The notes below the pieces were generated by a model. It did not search any database. It was given only the letters and a program-made list of their open reading frames with translations, and had not been told where the DNA came from. Of a stretch of 64,000 nucleotides of DNA, positions 30,679 through 38,595 are shown piece after piece. Where the stretch lies: positions 682,001-746,000 of the forward strand of contig NZ_JACXBS010000001.1 of assembly GCF_014698015.1 (NCBI RefSeq), given 5' to 3'. Origin of the DNA: Kocuria sp. cx-455. Its GTDB lineage: Bacteria; Actinomycetota; Actinomycetes; Actinomycetales; Micrococcaceae. Every line of letters starts with the position of its first letter. Position 1 is the stretch's first letter. Both the position numbers and the translations under genes were made by a program.

Positions 30679-32454
30679 CTACTTCAACTCCGTCACCGGC
30701 ACGAACTCGTATCCCAACTCCTGGATGCCCTCCACCGTCTTTTTGAGGTAGTTGACGTCCAGGTAGGGGTGGAAGAAGAAGCTCGCCGTGGATTCGCGAA
30801 CGGCCAGGTGCGCCTCGGCCCGGGAGATCAGGAACTCCGGGTCGCGGGTGGCGTGGTTGTTCTGTTCCGACTCGGTGATGTTGCCCAGGTTCTCCGGGTA
30901 CACCGTGCTGCCGTAAATGTCGTGCACGGTGTACGGGAAGTGCTGACTGTAGACCCGGCCTGCCTCGCTGGGTTCACCCGAGAGGATTCCCGCGAAGTAG
31001 TCGCTCTGCTCGTACCGGGCGTCGTAGACGTCGGTCATGGCCGCGTACGCATTGGGCGATGCGGCGTAATGCGGGGTCTCGAAAATCTCCGGCTCGCCCA
31101 GCCCGGCGTCGATCATGACTTGCCGGCCCTTCTCGATCCGCGCGGTGTGCTGTGCCACGGAGTCCTCGGCGATCCGGCCGATCTGGCGAATGTAGGAGGT
31201 GTTCGTGCACTCCCCGAACTTGTAGGGCTGGCGTGCTGTGGCACTGCATCCGTAGCGGTAGAACTCGTAATCCTCACCCGAGCGGCCGCTGTACGGATTG
31301 TCGAGGGTGCCGAACTGGTGCGTGGTGCCGTGCTGGACCAGCGTGCCACCGCGCTCCTGCATGTACTTGAGCGCATCCACCACCTCGGGGCGATCCAGCA
31401 GACTCAGCCCGTACCAATCGTCTCCCTCGGGAGTCTTGGCCATGTGAATCGGCATCACGGCCACCTGGAACGGCACGCCGGCTTCCTGGAAGTAGTCGGC
31501 CATGGTGCGCAGGTCGGCGGGATCGGACTCCGGCCCCACGTCCTCCAAGCGCACCGCGGCCTGCTTCACCGGGGCGGTATCCGGCGCCAGCAGGCCGTAG
31601 AACAAATCCGAATAAATGAGATAAACGTCATTCTCGTCGATGTAATCCAACGGGATCTCGCTCACGAACGTCAGATTCTCGGAACGCACCGCCCACGGAA
31701 CGTCCTGGGCGCCGTCGGCTTTGCCGGGCTCGCAGGAAACCGGGGCGTCGTCCTTCCGGCACTGCGCGCTGGCCAGCACCTCCACGGAGCTGCCGGGTTC
31801 CACGACGGGCGATTCCAAGGTCTCCGTGGAATCGGTGTACCGCGCCACGTCCTTGTCGTTGTAGCGGACCGAATGGAGCAGGTCGCTGCTGACGGCCTGC
31901 GTCTGGCCCGCATCCCACCCGAATTCGGAACGGAACTGCGCCGTTCGGTCGCTCTGCCCGCTCGTCATCGTGTTCAGGTTCTCGCCCACCCACATCACCG
32001 GGGTGTCCAAGGTCAGAACATCGTCCAGGAACGCCGGCGGGGGAGTGGCCGCGGCATCCGTGCCGATGTACACCACGGCGTCATAGTCGGTCATGGCGTT
32101 GTGCACGTACTCGGCCACCGGTTTGATCTCCGCCGTTCCGAAATGGGACACCAGGTTGCCCGTGGCCACGGCGTACAGCTCACCGTCGGAGGACGTGTTG
32201 TCCGCCTTGTCGTACAGCACCAGGGTGGAGGCCTTACCTTCCTCGCCGAACGTGGCGGGGAAGCTGGCTTCCGAACCCTCCCCGTCGGCGTCGGAGACCG
32301 TTGTGTACTCCCTGACCAGGGGTGAACCCTGGCCTTCGCGCAGCGAATCATTGGTCAACCCGAAAACTATCGCGGTGGACACGAGCAGCAGAACGAGCAG
32401 TCCCGCCACCCAGGCGGCGCGTTGGCCCCTCGACAATTGAAAAGATGTGCTCAT
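30679..32454 (-). CDS. DUF2334 polysaccharide deacetylase-like protein, membrane anchored
   Basis: A 591-residue protein with one N-terminal membrane helix (about residues 13-33) and a large extracellular part. The first half is a flavodoxin- or Rossmann-like region with VVYIGTDAA and VMWVGENL; the second half is the DUF2334 domain, distantly related to polysaccharide deacetylases. RLEDVGP at 302-308 (Asp) and HGTTHQ at 375-380 (two His) match the expected metal site. Homologues occur in the Bacillus YdaL and Listeria Pss exopolysaccharide operons. It would modify or trim the polymer outside the cell. It is the last gene of the cluster, separated from the epimerase gene by a hairpin. Confidence 0.85.
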   Translation of the reverse strand: MSTSFQLSRGQRAAWVAGLLVLLLVSTAIVFGLTNDSLREGQGSPLVREYTTVSDADGEGSEASFPATFGEEGKASTLVLYDKADNTSSDGELYAVATGNLVSHFGTAEIKPVAEYVHNAMTDYDAVVYIGTDAAATPPPAFLDDVLTLDTPVMWVGENLNTMTSGQSDRTAQFRSEFGWDAGQTQAVSSDLLHSVRYNDKDVARYTDSTETLESPVVEPGSSVEVLASAQCRKDDAPVSCEPGKADGAQDVPWAVRSENLTFVSEIPLDYIDENDVYLIYSDLFYGLLAPDTAPVKQAAVRLEDVGPESDPADLRTMADYFQEAGVPFQVAVMPIHMAKTPEGDDWYGLSLLDRPEVVDALKYMQERGGTLVQHGTTHQFGTLDNPYSGRSGEDYEFYRYGCSATARQPYKFGECTNTSYIRQIGRIAEDSVAQHTARIEKGRQVMIDAGLGEPEIFETPHYAASPNAYAAMTDVYDARYEQSDYFAGILSGEPSEAGRVYSQHFPYTVHDIYGSTVYPENLGNITESEQNNHATRDPEFLISRAEAHLAVRESTASFFFHPYLDVNYLKKTVEGIQELGYEFVPVTELK

Positions 32455-32493
32455 GGCTCCCCCGCCTGAACGTGATGTGGATCGTGAAATGTA

Positions 32494-32517
32494 GGTGTTC
32501 GCCCCAGTTCGAACACC
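32494..32517 (-). terminator. intercistronic hairpin between the epimerase and DUF2334 genes
   Basis: An 8-bp perfect stem (32494-32501 with 32510-32517) with an 8-base loop lies directly after the epimerase stop codon at 32528 and 40 bases before the DUF2334 start. It may lower read-through into the DUF2334 gene or protect the upstream mRNA. Confidence 0.4.
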
Positions 32518-32527
32518 GTGTGAAAAC

Positions 32528-33727
32528 TCAGTGGGCGGTGGCCCGGGTGAACGGTGGTTGATCGAAGGAGAACTCGTTCACGGCATCCCCCATGCCGAAG
32601 TAACGAGCCACCGCGTGCACCGTGCGTTCCGCAGCACGGCCGTCCCCGTAGGGATTGAGCCCCCGCGCCATGCGACCGTACGCGAGACTGTTGCTGAGCA
32701 ACGTGGAAACCTCTCGGGTAATGGTGCTCTCATCGGTTCCGACCAACTTCACCATGCCGGTTTCCACGGCTTCCGGTCGCTCGGTGGTCTCACGCAGCAC
32801 CAGGACCGGTTTGCCCAATGAAGGACCTTCCTCCTGCACACCGCCACTGTCGGTGAGGATGATCTTGGACCGTTCCATCAGCGCGCAGAACTGCGCGTAG
32901 GGCAACGGATCAATCAGCACCACGTTGTCTCGCCCCCCGGGGGCGGGCTGGATCGCCTCGCGCACCCGTGGATTCGGCTGCGCGGGGACAATGAAGTCGT
33001 GGTCGGGGTGCCTCCTGGCCAGCGTGGCAATGGCCCGGCCCACGGCCTTCCACGGTTCACCCCACGATTGCCCATGGTGGGCCGCGACCAGAACCACCGG
33101 GCGACCGCGGTCCAGGCGCCGGGCCAGGGCGGCGTCGGCGATCCGGGGCCGGGACGCCACGGTGGCCAACAGCGCGTCGACGCCCGAATTGCCCGTGACC
33201 ACAATGTCCGACGCCGCCACGTTCTCCCGCAGCAGATTCTCGCGGCTTGCCGCGGTGGGGGTCAGGTGCAGGCTGGCGATCTGCCCGGTGAGACGCCGGT
33301 TGATTTCCTCCGGGAACGGCGAGGACCTGTTGCCCGTGCGCAGCCCGGCCTCAGTATGAATCACCGGAATCTCCGCGTAGGAGGCCGCGAGCGCGCCCGT
33401 GAACGACGTGGTCGTGTCGCCCTGGACCAGCACCGCATCGGGACGCTCGGTCTGCAGGACCTGCGTCAGCCCTTCGAGGATGCGGGCGCTGATCTGTGTG
33501 AGTGGCTGTCCGCGCGAAGGGATGTCCAGGTCGTGATCCGGCACGATCCCGAAATCCTCGTTGACCTGCTCCAATACCTCGCGGTGCTGCCCCGTGACGA
33601 CCACGCGCACGCGGAAACGCGGATCGTTGCGCAGCGCCAGGATCAGCGGCGCCATTTTGATGGCCTCGGGAAGGGTCCCATAGACCGCCATGACGGTGAC
33701 CGGTTGAAAGGGGGGTGTTCGTACCAT
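32528..33727 (-). CDS. wecB: UDP-N-acetylglucosamine 2-epimerase homologue (non-hydrolysing), divergent
   Basis: A 399-residue GT-B-fold epimerase of the WecB/MnaA family, which makes UDP-N-acetylmannosamine from UDP-GlcNAc. Present are QGDTTT (Asp104), HTEAGLR (Glu126), PFPEE (Glu140/141), ILTDSGGVQEEGPSLGKPV and NPYGDG. Two conserved loops are changed: the usual GTRPEAIK reads GTLPEAIK at 17-24, and the usual HRRES/N segment reads HHGQS at 217-221. Catalytic acids remain, but nucleotide or sugar contacts may differ. The ATG at 33727 has AGGAG; the frame is open to 33853. In this operon it probably supplies the amino-sugar donor for the GT2 synthase. Confidence 0.82.
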   Translation of the reverse strand: MVRTPPFQPVTVMAVYGTLPEAIKMAPLILALRNDPRFRVRVVVTGQHREVLEQVNEDFGIVPDHDLDIPSRGQPLTQISARILEGLTQVLQTERPDAVLVQGDTTTSFTGALAASYAEIPVIHTEAGLRTGNRSSPFPEEINRRLTGQIASLHLTPTAASRENLLRENVAASDIVVTGNSGVDALLATVASRPRIADAALARRLDRGRPVVLVAAHHGQSWGEPWKAVGRAIATLARRHPDHDFIVPAQPNPRVREAIQPAPGGRDNVVLIDPLPYAQFCALMERSKIILTDSGGVQEEGPSLGKPVLVLRETTERPEAVETGMVKLVGTDESTITREVSTLLSNSLAYGRMARGLNPYGDGRAAERTVHAVARYFGMGDAVNEFSFDQPPFTRATAH

Positions 33728-33773
33728 GAATTCTCCTCTGGGATGCCGGCCCACGGCACCCCGATTGTTAGCG

Positions 33774-34436
33774 TCAATCTCCCGGCGCGGTGGCCACGCT
33801 GAGGTCCATGAAACGGACCCGGGCGTCCTCCGTGTACAGCCCGATGGAGCCACCGCGGTACGGCCGCTCCGAATCAGTCACCGTGGCCAATACGTGACCG
33901 TCCACCTTGACGGTCATCCGGGGCCAGTCCTGCTCGATCTCCACTCGGTAGTCCTGCCCGACGGGAAATTGCACGTCATCCCCGGTGGCCAGGAAACGTT
34001 GGCTTCCCGGGTACTCGGGGTCCTGTTTGGAAATTTCCCAGCCGTTGGGTTTGAGCGCCACGGCGTAGAAATGCTCGTTGTCCCGGAAATTCCACAGCAC
34101 CCAACCCACCTCCCACACATTGGGAGAGCCCTTGCGCACCTGCTCCTCGGTGTTCATGGTGATCTCGAAGTCCGCGTCCTGATACGTCTCAGTGGTGCGC
34201 ACCAGTGACGCGTGTGTGACGTCCGCCGACGTCGCCGCGTTGGGTTCCAGCACCACCTGCTGGTCCGTACCGACCGTCCGGCCGTGCCCGTTGTAGACCG
34301 TCGTCCACCGGCCGTGGGTTTCCCCGTCCGCCCAGGGTTGGAGCCGCCACACGTTATTGACCCCTGCCATGACCAACAGCGCGAGGAGCAGGACTCCCAG
34401 TAGCACCGCCGGCAATTTCCTCGGGTATGGCCTCAC
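33774..34436 (-). CDS. membrane-anchored jelly-roll (DUF1080/LamG-like) protein
   Basis: A 220-residue protein with a single N-terminal membrane helix (LPAVLLGVLLLALLVMAG, residues 8-25) and an extracellular beta-rich domain. The pattern DADFEITMNTEEQ, VGWVLWNFRDNEHFYAVALKPNGW (in parts), DYRVEIEQDWPRMTVKVDG and GGSIGLYTEDARVRFMDL is that of concanavalin-like jelly rolls (DUF1080/LamG), often carbohydrate binding. The GTG at 34436 has a GGAGGAG ribosome site that lies inside the end of the GT2 gene, giving an 83-base overlap. It may bind the nascent polymer at the cell surface. It has no catalytic motif I can name. Confidence 0.75.
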   Translation of the reverse strand: MRPYPRKLPAVLLGVLLLALLVMAGVNNVWRLQPWADGETHGRWTTVYNGHGRTVGTDQQVVLEPNAATSADVTHASLVRTTETYQDADFEITMNTEEQVRKGSPNVWEVGWVLWNFRDNEHFYAVALKPNGWEISKQDPEYPGSQRFLATGDDVQFPVGQDYRVEIEQDWPRMTVKVDGHVLATVTDSERPYRGGSIGLYTEDARVRFMDLSVATAPGD

Positions 34437-35760
34437 CGGTCAGCTCCTCCGCGGACACGTCCACTTGATTTTTACTTTCGACATTGCGTTCCGTCTTGGC
34501 CCACGAGTTCTTGCCGAGGACGGCGCGGTAGGCCGCCTTCCAGCCCGCCACATACCAGAGCACCGCGTAGAGGACGTACCCGTGGATCAGCGCCACGGCC
34601 ACGAACGGGTTCAATCCCTGCTGTTTCTCCTGCGACCAGTACACGAATCCGAACAGCACGGCGGGCCCGAACGCCACTAGATAGGCGGAGAGCCACCAGG
34701 GGGAGACCACCGCCTGTCCCAGGGCGATGTCGAGCAGGACGTCCAGGACCCAGAACGCGAATGCCGCACTCAGGAAGGACGTGACCAGGAGCAGGAACGG
34801 GCTGGTCAGGTGGTACAGAATGTCTGTCCTGCGCGTCCCGGTCAGATCGCGCAGCACCCAGGGCACCAGGTTCCAGGACTGAAGGTGCCCCTGGAACCAG
34901 CGGGTGCGCTGTTTGATCCACCGCTTGACGTCCACCAGGCCCTGCTGGTGCACGGACGAGGTGGAGCAGAACTCGATGTCCCACTCGTCGATGTGCAACC
35001 GGACCCCCAGGTCCAGGTCCTCCGTGAGACTGTGGGACCACGGAGCCGGGCCCAACCCTGTGAGTGCGGACAACCGCACGAACTGACCGTTGCCGCCCAG
35101 GCCCACACTGCCCAAATGCCGGCGACCGCGCTGGAACACGTGAGTGAACAGCACGAATTCGATGTCTTGCATGCGGGCCAACAAGTTCTGCTGGCGGTTG
35201 TTGATACGAACACCGACCTGCACGGCACCCAGCTGATCATCCCGGAACAGGGGCATGACCTCATCCAGAGCGTCGGGATCGAGGCGCCCGTCCGCATCCA
35301 TGACGCACACGATCACTTCCGACTGGGGCAATCCGGCGAGCAATTCGCTGCCCACGAGGTGTCGAACGGCCGCGTTCAACGCTTCGCCCTTGCCCTGACG
35401 GGCCTCCGGGAGAACACGTTGGAACAGGCGAACCCGCGGATCCGGGTGTGAGCGAACGATATCCGCGGTCCCGTCATCGGAACCGTCATCAATCACGAGA
35501 ATATGAATTCTGGGATAATCAAGACTGGTCAGGCGGTCCAGACTTGCTTTCAGAACGCGATCCTCGTTCAAACACGGGACCACGAAGACCACGGTTTTTT
35601 CAGAGCCAACATCCTGAGTCTGACCAGCGGAAATTCCCCGACCGCGGGGTTCAAAACGAGAAAGCATCAATAAGGTCAAACCGTACAGAACACTAATCAG
35701 CACCAGCGCAATAACGAGCCACAGGACCAAATCGATCCTGTTTCCGAAAAACATAATCAT
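34354..35760 (-). CDS. processive family 2 glycosyltransferase (exopolysaccharide synthase)
   Basis: A 468-residue membrane glycosyltransferase like IcaA/PgaC, NodC and hyaluronan synthase. One N-terminal helix (about 9-33) precedes the cytoplasmic GT2 domain with DDGS at 91-94, DADG at 155-158 (the metal-binding DxD), TEDLD at 246-250 (catalytic base) and QRTRW at 284-288, the Q(Q/R)xRW hallmark of processive synthases. Three or four C-terminal helices would form the polymer channel. A charged C-terminal tail of about 50 residues overlaps the next gene by 83 bases. It probably polymerises a UDP-activated amino sugar and extrudes the chain. Confidence 0.92.
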   Translation of the reverse strand: MIMFFGNRIDLVLWLVIALVLISVLYGLTLLMLSRFEPRGRGISAGQTQDVGSEKTVVFVVPCLNEDRVLKASLDRLTSLDYPRIHILVIDDGSDDGTADIVRSHPDPRVRLFQRVLPEARQGKGEALNAAVRHLVGSELLAGLPQSEVIVCVMDADGRLDPDALDEVMPLFRDDQLGAVQVGVRINNRQQNLLARMQDIEFVLFTHVFQRGRRHLGSVGLGGNGQFVRLSALTGLGPAPWSHSLTEDLDLGVRLHIDEWDIEFCSTSSVHQQGLVDVKRWIKQRTRWFQGHLQSWNLVPWVLRDLTGTRRTDILYHLTSPFLLLVTSFLSAAFAFWVLDVLLDIALGQAVVSPWWLSAYLVAFGPAVLFGFVYWSQEKQQGLNPFVAVALIHGYVLYAVLWYVAGWKAAYRAVLGKNSWAKTERNVESKNQVDVSAEELTGEAIPEEIAGGATGSPAPRAVGHGRGQ

Positions 35761-35770
35761 GACGGATGCT

Positions 35771-36079
35771 CTACCGCTGACCGTGGTATTGGTCCGAACC
35801 GGTTTTCACGTGGGCACCCCGCACGCGGTGACCCGTGTGTTGCACGTGCGATCCGCCGGTGAGGGCCGCAACAGTGCGGGATCCGGGGTGCTGCCGAAGC
35901 GATGTCCACGTGGTGAACGCGCTTGAGATGGCTACTGCGCACACCATGAACAGCATGTAGGCCAAGAAAAGCGCCATGGCGATCATGAGCAGTAGTCGCC
36001 CGCCACTTTGCAGGATTGAATGAGTGTATTCCGGCATACTGCCCACGCCGTTCAATGGCGCGTTTGTAGCTACGAGCAT
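35771..36079 (-). CDS. small single-helix membrane protein at the head of the exopolysaccharide operon
   Basis: A 102-residue protein with one long hydrophobic helix (LLLMIAMALFLAYMLFMVCA, about 29-48) flanked by a polar 28-residue N-terminus and a basic, His-rich tail of about 50 residues. The ATG at 36079 has a GGGGGAA ribosome site, and its stop is 10 bases from the GT2 start, so the two are translated together. It resembles no family I know. In related systems a small partner protein or a c-di-GMP receptor controls the synthase, and this gene sits where such a partner would be expected. It has no GGDEF or PilZ motif. Confidence 0.7.
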   Translation of the reverse strand: MLVATNAPLNGVGSMPEYTHSILQSGGRLLLMIAMALFLAYMLFMVCAVAISSAFTTWTSLRQHPGSRTVAALTGGSHVQHTGHRVRGAHVKTGSDQYHGQR

Positions 36080-36488: not shown

Positions 36489-36995
36489 ATGACCTCGACC
36501 ACTTTCTCTGCGCAGCAGCCGCAGCACGAGAACGCCGGCACCACCGCCGTCGCTCCCGGGGCGTGGGCCGCGCGGATCCGGGAGGCTGGACTGCGTGTCA
36601 CCAAACCTCGGCTGGCCGTGCTGGACGCCTTGGAGCGTTCCCCGCATACCACTGCCGATGAGGTGCTCTCCGCGGTCCGCACAGTGATGCCCAGCATCAC
36701 CGTGCAATCCGTCTACGTGGTGTTGCACTCGCTCACCAAGGCCGGTCTGTTGCGTCAGCTTGACCTGGCACACTCTCCGGCCCGTTACGAGACGCGGGTG
36801 GCCGACAACCATCACCATGCGGTGTGCACGGTGTGTGGGCGCATTGAGGACGTCGCCTGCGCCGTCGGGCACGCTCCCTGTCTGGCCCCCACCGAAACCC
36901 ATGGGATGAACATCCACGTGGCGGATGTCGTATACCAAGGCGTCTGTTCCGACTGCTCGGCTCAAGAATCCGACACGGCGACAGCGCAGAGCTAG
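36489..36995 (+). CDS. furA: Fur family transcriptional regulator (FurA type)
   Basis: A 168-residue Fur-family repressor. The winged HTH covers about residues 25-100 ([22 protein letters not shown], in part, then [15 protein letters not shown]). The dimerisation part carries the metal motif [11 protein letters not shown] and a second Cys pair CSDC for structural zinc. Its position directly upstream of katA, 76 bases away on the same strand, is the classic furA-catalase arrangement in actinobacteria, where FurA senses peroxide or iron state and represses both genes. A palindrome just before its start is the likely operator. Confidence 0.9.
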
Positions 36996-37071
36996 CCCCT
37001 TAGTCCTCCGCGAGGCCCATCCAGGGCCGACCGGTTCACCCACCCGTCCCAGCCCAACCAAGGAGTACGTG

Positions 37072-38595
37072 ATGACGGACACCACCCCACACGGTACAGG
37101 TTCGACCACCCAGGCCGGCATCCCCGCAGTCAGCGACCGCAACTCGCTGACCACCGGTCCCAACGGAGCGATCGTGCTTCACGACCACCACCTGGTGGAG
37201 ACCCTGCAGCACTTCAACCGCATGAACGTTCCCGAGCGTCGTCCGCACGCTAAGGGCTCCGGCGCATTCGGTACTTTCGAGGTCACCGAGGACGTTTCCC
37301 GGTGGACCAAGGCGGACTTCCTGCAGCCCGGCGAGAAGACCGAGATGCTTGCTCGCTTCTCCACGGTGGCAGGCGAGCTGGGTTCCCCGGACACCTGGCG
37401 CGACGTCCGCGGCTTCGCCCTGAAGTTCTACACCCAAGAGGGCAACTTCGACCTGGTCGGTAACAACACCCCCGTCTTCTTCGTGCGCGACCCCATGAAG
37501 TTCACCCACTTCATCCGCTCGCAGAAGCGTTTGCCGGACTCCGGACTGCGTGACGGCACCATGCAGTGGGACTTCTGGACCCAGAACCCCGAGTCCGCTC
37601 ACCAGGTGACCTACCTGATGGGTCAGCGTGGTCTGCCCAAGACCTGGCGTCACATGAACGGCTACGGTTCCCACACGTTCATGTGGGTCAACGAAGCCGG
37701 CGAGAAGTTCTGGGTCAAGTGGCACTTCGAGTCGAACCAGGGCGTGGACTTCCTCTCCAACGACGAGGCCGAGGCCCTGGCCGGTGCCGACGCCGAGGCT
37801 CACCGCCGTGACCTGTTCGACGCCATCGAGCGCGGCGAGCACCCCTCGTGGGACCTGTACGTGCAGGTCATGCCGTACGAGGAGGCCAAGACCTACCGCT
37901 TCAACCCGTTCGATCTCACCAAGACCTGGTCGAAGAAGGACTACCCGCGTCACAAGGTCGGCACCATGACCTTGAACCGCAACCCGGAGAACTTCTTCGC
38001 GCAGATCGAGCAGGCCGCGTTCTCCCCGGCCAACGTGGTTCCCGGTATCGGCATGAGCCCGGACAAGATGCTGCTGGGCCGCAACTTCGCCTACGCGGAT
38101 GCTCAGCGCTACCGCATCGGCACCAACTTCCAGCAGCTGCCGGTGAACCGCCCGATCAACGAGGTCCACACCTACAACTTCGAGGGCAATATGTGGTATG
38201 AGCACAGCGGCAACCGCAGCGTGTACGCACCCAACTCCTTCGGTGATTCCTGGTCGGACGAGGTCGGACCGGTCGACACCGGCTGGGAGGACGACGGCGC
38301 CCTGGTGCGCGAGGCTTACACCCTCCGCGAGGACGACGGCGACTTCGTCCAGGCAGGCATCTTGGTCCGCGAGGTGTTCTCCGACGCCCAGCGCGACGAG
38401 TTCGTCGAGACCGTTGCCGGCGCCCTGGACGGTGTGAAGGAACCGGTGTTGTCCAACGCCTTCCAGTACTGGAAGAACGTGGACGAGACCATCGGTCAGC
38501 GCATCGAAGAGGCCGTCAAGGCCGGAGCCACCGGCACCGAGGTCCCGGGTATGGGCGTTGACGAGGACGAGAACGTCGCCGCCCCGGCCAACTGA
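37072..38595 (+). CDS. katA: monofunctional catalase, small-subunit clade
   Basis: A 507-residue haem catalase, typical small-subunit length. The distal His59 lies in [13 protein letters not shown], the distal Asn in [11 protein letters not shown], and the proximal haem Tyr in [12 protein letters not shown]. It degrades hydrogen peroxide to water and oxygen in the cytoplasm. The ATG at 37072 has an AAGGAG ribosome site; the frame is open to 36925 inside furA without support. The codon use is clearly biased toward C-ending preferred codons, as expected for a highly expressed protein. Transcription ends at a strong terminator at 38624-38657. Confidence 0.97.

Follow-up and report, generated by a model that had tools for sequence, protein, structure and literature searches.

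A candidate WecB-linked, synthase-dependent exopolysaccharide operon of Actinomycetota, examined in Kocuria sp. cx-455

Five genes on the minus strand of Kocuria sp. cx-455 raised the question of whether they make a polymer and, if so, from which sugar. They lie within a window, the whole stretch of DNA that was analysed, of 64,000 nucleotides. An earlier note had described them as a tightly ordered actinobacterial exopolysaccharide operon, a variant of the Listeria Pss and Bacillus Yda systems that lacked their c-di-GMP receptor but had a WecB-type epimerase making UDP-ManNAc. The present analysis favors, with a probability of about 0.6, a synthase-dependent exopolysaccharide operon of Actinomycetota in which WecB, GT2 and DUF2334 proteins would make and edit a ManNAc chain without the use of c-di-GMP.

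The five genes and their products

All five open reading frames were found on the minus strand in the order previously described, an arrangement confirmed by the reading frames themselves and by family profile matches. The first (35771..36079) encodes a small membrane protein of 102 residues, recognized from its reading frame and hydropathy, with hydrophobic segments at residues 21-40 and 43-61. A relative occupied the same position in most loci of Kocuria and its family, and also in Arthrobacter, while the match was only 21 bits in one Microbacterium and one Corynebacterium locus. Kocuria is a member of the Micrococcaceae, and Arthrobacter belongs to the same family. No model in the family profile search scored the small protein above its cut-off; its position suggests an accessory subunit.

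The second gene (34354..35760) encodes a GT2 polysaccharide synthase of 468 residues that matched PF13641 with 106.4 bits (cut-off 27). The elements that define a processive GT2, the D, DxD, TED and QxxRW motifs together with membrane segments, were all found in the cx-455 protein, as had been claimed: D91/D92, D155-A-D157, E247-D248 and Q284-x-x-R287-W288 were kept in 14 or 15 of the 15 aligned sequences, cx-455 included, and the hydrophobic segments were at residues 1-37, 318-336, 355-375 and 383-401. The best named model was the XrtP-associated glycosyltransferase NF053846 (296.7 bits, below its cut-off of 520), followed by PgaC/IcaA (103 bits, cut-off 422). The GT2 family models name no donor sugar.

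The third gene (33774..34436, GTG start) overlaps the end of the GT2 gene by 83 bases. Its product of 220 residues, a membrane-anchored, CBM66-like jelly-roll beta-sandwich, matched PF06439 with 30.8 bits (cut-off 26.8) and probably binds or modifies glycan outside the cell, although the search of solved structures returned nothing firm. The fourth gene (32528..33727, 399 residues) encodes the WecB-type UDP-GlcNAc 2-epimerase in a degenerate copy. It starts at an ATG preceded by GAGGAGAA; a longer reading frame from 33853 is mechanical, and the start at 33727 was used.

The last gene (30679..32454) encodes a membrane-anchored DUF2334 protein of 591 residues, the family membership being secured by a PF10096 match of 166.5 bits (cut-off 26). 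E304-D305, H379 and P461-H462-Y463 were present in 44/44 aligned sequences and H375 and H562 in 41/44, those of cx-455 included in each case, and on the basis of these motifs the protein is predicted to be a polysaccharide deacetylase-like enzyme, in agreement with the earlier reading. Of these residues, D305, H375 and H379 are candidates for the metal-binding D and HxxxH expected of a polysaccharide deacetylase with a NodB-like fold. Solved structures gave weak matches only. In the literature searched, the term DUF2334 occurs in one paper (PMC3597751).

When cx-455 was compared with a related locus (L035), dN/dS was 0.12 for the GT2, 0.16 for the jelly-roll protein and 0.12 for DUF2334, indicating that these three genes are under selection; the small membrane protein evolved fast (0.41). 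Profiles for GGDEF, PilZ and MshEN found no match anywhere in the cx-455 genome, while they matched 8/14, 5/14 and 5/14 control genomes, respectively, so that the claimed absence of a c-di-GMP receptor holds for the known kinds.

Conservation across Actinomycetota

The GT2, WecB-type epimerase and DUF2334 genes travel together in Actinomycetota. Among 59 untruncated named loci, 20 truncated ones having been left out, the GT2 gene had DUF2334 nearby in 58, the epimerase in 56 and the jelly-roll gene in 37, and the conserved gene set upholds the view of an exopolysaccharide-type operon of this phylum. All three named loci that had no epimerase were from Kocuria. Linkage to WecB extends beyond the DUF2334 type: an epimerase was also near four of the six GT2 loci of the sister type without DUF2334 (L046, L048, L127 and L132, not L047 or L049). 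The clustering of neighboring reading frames chained overlapping frames and served just for picking a few extra genes.

In the GT2 tree, which did not include B. subtilis YdaM or hyaluronan synthase, the actinobacterial proteins formed a single starred clade (100/99) apart from PssC, PgaC/IcaA, NfrB, NodC and BcsA. PssC, PgaC/IcaA and the two NfrB sequences were each on a separate starred branch. The earlier note had expected kinship with the Listeria Pss synthase rather than with hyaluronan, chitin or cellulose synthases; the protein was indeed not grouped with BcsA or NodC, but the kinship with PssC was not supported.

No description of the operon was found in the literature searched, which is weak evidence of absence since most subscription journals were outside the search. 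The exopolysaccharide clusters of Actinoplanes missouriensis are described as Wzx/Wzy or GtrA types in PMC13390465, whose text never mentions an epimerase, and represent a different system. CslZ of Streptomyces, considered as a possible relative, had no link to the operon in a literature listing and the opening lines of abstracts.

The operon epimerase and the donor sugar

The cx-455 epimerase belongs to the WecB family, as claimed (Epimerase_2, 358.9 bits; wecB TIGR00236, 430.6 bits, cut-off 210.15), but it departs from a typical WecB: 8 of 88 near-invariant positions are altered, and the near-invariant residue set of the active-site region is incomplete. In E. coli numbering, the changes include R10L, T211A, R214H, R215G, E216Q and H246Q, while K15, D95, E117, E131 and H213 are still present. 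Leu19 (codon 33671-33673) aligns with Arg10 of E. coli WecB. This Arg is present in 80 of the 82 rows of the alignment (79 distinct), in all but those of cx-455 and L035, and a partial copy in G023 that was left out of the count likewise has Leu. The K15A variant of E. coli WecB is inactive, according to PMC8669472. The loss of near-invariant residues indicates that the cx-455 copy is probably inactive. A second, canonical WecB is encoded elsewhere in the genome, unlinked to the operon. For both reasons, production of UDP-ManNAc by the operon's own epimerase, as the earlier note proposed, is doubtful, while a ManNAc polymer is still the best reading of the operon.

The degenerate epimerase and the fast-evolving small protein could also mean that the cx-455 operon is already decaying and makes no product. 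Other members of the genus have a broken operon: in G012, DUF2334 shows a frame change and a gap of some 100 residues, and G006 and G022 retain scars only. We nevertheless regard decay as unlikely, if the least so of the alternatives, in view of the open GT2, jelly-roll and DUF2334 frames with their low dN/dS and retained motifs, and of the canonical WecB in the same genome.

The ManNAc reading gains support from a reciprocal pattern of epimerase loss, although it comprises few independent events. In the four family carriers that have no other WecB (G008 with two copies, G014, G213 and G370), the motifs of the operon epimerase were intact. In the nine with an unlinked canonical WecB, the operon copy was missing (G002, G010, G012, G024, G027 and G137) or degenerate (G000, G018 and G023). 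With relatedness considered, the pattern reduced to two starred independent pairs, or three when all branches were counted (sign test, p 0.5). More widely, in a set of 15 named genomes chosen by the analysts, the operon copy was the sole WecB in seven, while eight retained the operon epimerase despite a second WecB match (253-297 bits in six, 359-371 bits in two). The Kocuria losses amount to a natural experiment through which the identity of the donor sugar can be tested directly.

Somewhat less probable than decay is a PNAG-type GlcNAc polymer, with WecB serving another purpose or tuning UDP-GlcNAc. PgaC/IcaA was the best named GT2 model after XrtP, and a membrane GT2 with an extracellular deacetylase-like partner would also suit the PgaC/IcaA and PgaB/IcaB systems. 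However, the position of PgaC/IcaA in the tree, the linkage of WecB in 56 of 59 loci and the reciprocal losses argue against it. The E. coli pga stretch has no wecB, and the PNAG deacetylase is of the CE4 type, in contrast to the DUF2334 protein of the actinobacterial operon.

A little less probable again, the epimerase may feed a different polymer, such as a teichuronic acid containing ManNAcA, while the GT2, jelly-roll and DUF2334 proteins make an unrelated product, such as a glucan. WecB products do have other uses in the genus, since the unlinked WecB is paired with a nucleotide-sugar dehydrogenase, both in cx-455 (L053) and in five of eight other carriers (G018, G002, G023, G010 and G012; not seen in G024, G027 or G137). 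No such dehydrogenase occurs among the five operon genes, however, and the seven genomes with the operon copy as their only WecB also speak against this alternative.

For the ManNAc chain that we favor, we infer the UDP-ManNAc donor, the linkage, deacetylation, binding and surface location as follows. Cytoplasmic WecB would convert UDP-GlcNAc to UDP-ManNAc, which the membrane GT2, with the small membrane protein as accessory, would polymerize while extruding the chain. Outside the cell, the anchored DUF2334 enzyme would edit the chain, most likely by N-deacetylation, while its binding or guidance would fall to the anchored CBM66-like protein; c-di-GMP would play no part. In cx-455, where the operon WecB is probably dead, the unlinked second WecB would supply UDP-ManNAc. 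If so, a mannosamine polymer undescribed in the literature searched would be a product of many Actinomycetota, including species of Streptomyces, Actinomyces, Corynebacterium, Actinoplanes and Kocuria.

A broader proposal, which we put forward only tentatively, is that of a phylum-wide, c-di-GMP-independent poly-N-acetylmannosamine system in which DUF2334 is a deacetylase dedicated to poly-ManNAc, with the same enzyme family acting in the wecB-linked nfr loci of Betaproteobacteria, and a genome retains the operon WecB only for as long as it lacks another good source of UDP-ManNAc. DUF2334 would then gain a function, and WecB-dependent synthases of Gram-positive and Gram-negative bacteria would be tied together.

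Comparison with known systems

The analogy with Pss and Yda proved weak, and common descent with PssB and PssC is hardly credible. A DUF2334-annotated gene does adjoin the GT2 gene in Listeria pssA-E (L136), and a review (PMC6307706) describes the polymer as beta-1,4 ManNAc with galactose and lists PssB as its deacetylase. However, PssB aligned with the cx-455 DUF2334 protein over only 108 columns, scored 23.3 bits against PF10096, below the cut-off of 26, and lacks the D, HxxxH, PHY and FHP residues retained in the cx-455 protein. On these grounds and on the GT2 tree, filing the operon under Pss/Yda was rejected. The Listeria system also has BcsB-like and GGDEF proteins, while no BcsB-like gene is among the five of cx-455, and no wecB was present in the Listeria pss stretch examined. 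For the yda polymer, the lectin evidence reported in PMC13274460 points to Gal and/or GalNAc, not ManNAc. In the E. faecalis glycosyltransferase neighborhood (L137), the gene before the transferase was not a recognizable DUF2334 (6% probability; no Pfam match).

The XrtP-associated glycosyltransferases (NF053846) form the sister subclade of the actinobacterial GT2 proteins, but the stretches examined at their loci (L046-L049) contained no match to DUF2334 or to the jelly-roll protein.

The Nfr, or N4-glycan-receptor, pathway (NfrB, NfrA, YbcH and WecB) is a better analogue than Pss/Yda. Its GT2 has processive motifs and depends on WecB, and the E. coli polymer requires WecB and was proposed to be based on ManNAc, as stated in PMC8669472 and PMC8669469. 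The latter paper also describes linkage to wecB as frequent, and mentions rare NfrB homologues in Gram-positive bacteria, Eggerthella lenta being an example. The actinobacterial operon differs in that its GT2 is on another branch and has no MshEN c-di-GMP domain, and in that its five genes include a jelly-roll protein instead of NfrA. In an nfr-like locus on a Comamonadaceae plasmid, genes for WecB, an NfrB-like GT2, DUF2334, an NfrA-like TPR protein and DUF4434 occur in a row, and this DUF2334 protein aligns with that of cx-455 over 482 columns, as a full-length homologue.

Gene content and spread of the operon

The five minus-strand genes were found in the ORFs of the window in the place and order that the earlier note had claimed. 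Pfam and NCBIfam upheld the assignments of the DUF2334 protein, the WecB-type epimerase and the GT2 with its synthase-like domains; the jelly-roll protein matched PF06439 (Pfam) at a score barely above the cut-off. The genome of the window comprises 10 contigs and 3.06 Mb, and the closest named relative of its GT2 among the best 80 of 334 confirmed candidates was that of a Kocuria MAG (93%). Measured against the related locus L035, dN/dS was 0.12 to 0.16 for the GT2, jelly-roll and DUF2334 genes and 0.41 for the small membrane protein. The stretch 36489-38595 of the window holds a Fur/PerR-like regulator and an ORF that resembles a catalase, both on the strand opposite the operon and reading away from it.

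The search of genome contigs with the GT2 yielded 79 distinct loci from these best 80 of 334 candidates, and linkage was counted in the 59 with at least 6 kb on either side of the GT2, the 20 shorter loci being excluded. Within 7 kb of the GT2, 58 of these loci had a gene for DUF2334, 56 had one for an epimerase and 37 had one for a jelly-roll protein. All three occurred together in loci of Kocuria, Arthrobacter, Corynebacterium, Actinomyces and Peptidiphaga, among others, and also in Kitasatospora, Actinomadura, Acidithrix and Streptomyces, the DUF2334 of the last being divergent. Actinoplanes and its kin had the GT2, epimerase and DUF2334 without a jelly-roll gene, and a Streptomyces plasmid carried the full set of GT2, epimerase, DUF2334 and jelly-roll genes, its annotation assigning the jelly-roll gene to glycoside hydrolase family 16. 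An orthologous GT2 was present in 9 of 27 genomes of the genus; at family level, 395 genomes were sampled and 15 gave a GT2 match at E 1e-60. One of these, G171, showed no DUF2334 or jelly-roll match, leaving 14 family carriers. The operon is thus patchy in the family (14 among 395 genomes) and scattered over the phylum.

K. rosea TA 28 has the complete five-gene operon twice, in tandem (L056:3142-15151, also L039). A protein of about 540 residues is encoded near the operon in Actinomyces and Acidimicrobiia (L105:15456-17048, with homologues in L044, L066, L069, L078, L081, L089, L098, L099, L102 and L104); it had no match in Pfam or NCBIfam and is possibly a further operon component. Several Actinoplanes operons have a CBM2 protein a few kb downstream (L123:15856-17409 and Actinoplanes homologues) with a GH18-like stretch slightly below its cut-off. 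In three DUF2334 variants (L099:8147-9907, L102:8053-9822, L104:5265-7025), His375 and His562 (window numbering) were replaced by Glu and Asp, respectively, which could still bind metal.

Remnants in three genomes indicate that the operon has been lost repeatedly in Kocuria. In K. marina (G012; L037:10603-11801, the same stretch as L055), DUF2334 was split into two frames with about 100 residues gone, while the adjacent GT2 and jelly-roll genes were open. In G006 and G022 (L212:6197-7395, L213:6700-7676), the start of the small protein ran into the rear part of DUF2334, which resumed at about residue 227 in both and contained a further frame change; no GT2, jelly-roll or epimerase match was seen in these 14 kb stretches.

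The operon epimerase and WecB elsewhere in the genome

The window epimerase was aligned with other operon copies, with paralogues and with E. coli WecB, whose numbering is used here (82 rows, 79 distinct). It deviated at 8 of the 88 positions that were at least 93% conserved among the remaining rows, where the median was 0; only the remote sequences L132 and L048 deviated more. The substitutions T211A, R214H and H246Q were unique to it, R215 was altered in it and also in L132 and L048, V173G and E216Q were common to it and L035, and Arg10 was replaced by Leu in both and in the partial G023 copy. K15, D95, E117, E131 and H213 were retained. A canonical WecB is encoded elsewhere in the same genome (G000:C2:741370-742458), adjoining a nucleotide-sugar dehydrogenase. 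From these replacements, the window epimerase is read as a copy on its way to losing function. It is not evolving freely, since its dN/dS against L035 was 0.19; a function that has changed instead of being lost is a possible alternative.

For each of the 14 family carriers, the state of the operon epimerase was set against the presence of other WecB copies in that genome. Nine had an unlinked WecB. In six of them (G002, a draft 79% complete, G010, G012, G024, G027 and G137) the operon epimerase was missing; as the jelly-roll and DUF2334 matches stood only about 20 to 180 bases apart, an assembly gap does not account for this. In the window genome, G018 and G023 it was degenerate, the G023 copy also being broken off. 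The four carriers without an unlinked WecB (G008, with two tandem operons, G014, G213 and G370) had operon copies with intact motifs, that of G370 running to the contig end with its DUF2334 beyond view. The remaining carrier, G068, had no WecB match in its genome and an internal TGA in its GT2, which fits operon decay, a draft error being a possible alternative, and was excluded from the count. The exact probability of the 9-to-4 split is 1/715 if counted naively; tree-aware pairing gave two independent pairs in the same direction on well-supported branches and three on all branches, significance being unreachable with fewer than six.

Fifteen named genomes picked from the 79 GT2 loci (best 80 of 334 candidates) provided a further test. 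The operon WecB was the sole one in seven, and a second match was found in eight, scoring 253-297 bits in six and 359-371 bits in two, against 390-454 bits for the operon copies of those eight. One of the 15 is an Arthrobacter, of the same family as the window, with the same epimerase motifs intact. Together, the loss pattern and the picked genomes make a good but not conclusive case that the operon would require the WecB product. The N-acetylmannosamine polymer proposed in the earlier note remains the best reading, with a probability of roughly 0.6; the WecB loss pattern supports it, but the independent events are few.

Comparison with Pss and Nfr

The operon is rated a variant of the synthase-dependent exopolysaccharide systems and, as had been suspected, appears undescribed, no description having been found in the open-access literature searched. 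The c-di-GMP receptor of the known systems was, as noted earlier, absent: the window genome, which is 99.8% complete, gave no match to GGDEF, PilZ or MshEN domains. Of 14 control genomes, 8, 5 and 5, respectively, had matches. On this domain content, the operon is unlikely to be under any known kind of c-di-GMP control.

Filing the operon under Pss did not hold up. PssB of the Listeria pss operon is annotated as DUF2334, and is given as a deacetylase in a review (PMC6307706), but it aligned over 108 columns only and none of the DUF2334 motif residues was present. In a tree of 44 GT2 sequences, the 35 actinobacterial ones formed a single clade (100/99), with PssC, PgaC/IcaA, NfrB, NodC and BcsA outside it in unresolved order, the long branches of NodC and BcsA meeting. 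By the ancestry of its synthase, the operon thus belongs to neither Pss nor Nfr. A sister subclade inside the actinobacterial clade holds XrtP-associated glycosyltransferases (NF053846; L046 and L047 above the 520-bit cut-off) without DUF2334. Four of six loci of this type (L046, L048, L127, L132) had a WecB-like epimerase nearby, again without DUF2334, and their polymer may also use ManNAc.

A plasmid search with DUF2334 gave three records: the Streptomyces plasmid already described, one from Burkholderia vietnamiensis and one from a Comamonadaceae. In the second (L135:12953-14596), DUF2334 lies near diguanylate cyclase genes, with no annotated wecB or GT2 near it. The Comamonadaceae plasmid encodes consecutively wecB, an NfrB-like GT2, a 100-residue protein, DUF2334, an NfrA-like TPR protein and DUF4434; its DUF2334 matched the actinobacterial profile across 482 columns and retained the motif residues. 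Passages of two papers on the E. coli Nfr pathway (PMC8669472, PMC8669469) state that, of the common-antigen pathway, Nfr requires WecB alone and that nfrB is linked to wecB in other bacteria too; their authors propose that the polymer is based on ManNAc. With UDP-ManNAc as its donor, the operon would work like both Pss and Nfr; by analogy, the Nfr pathway is probably the closer functional model than Pss/Yda.
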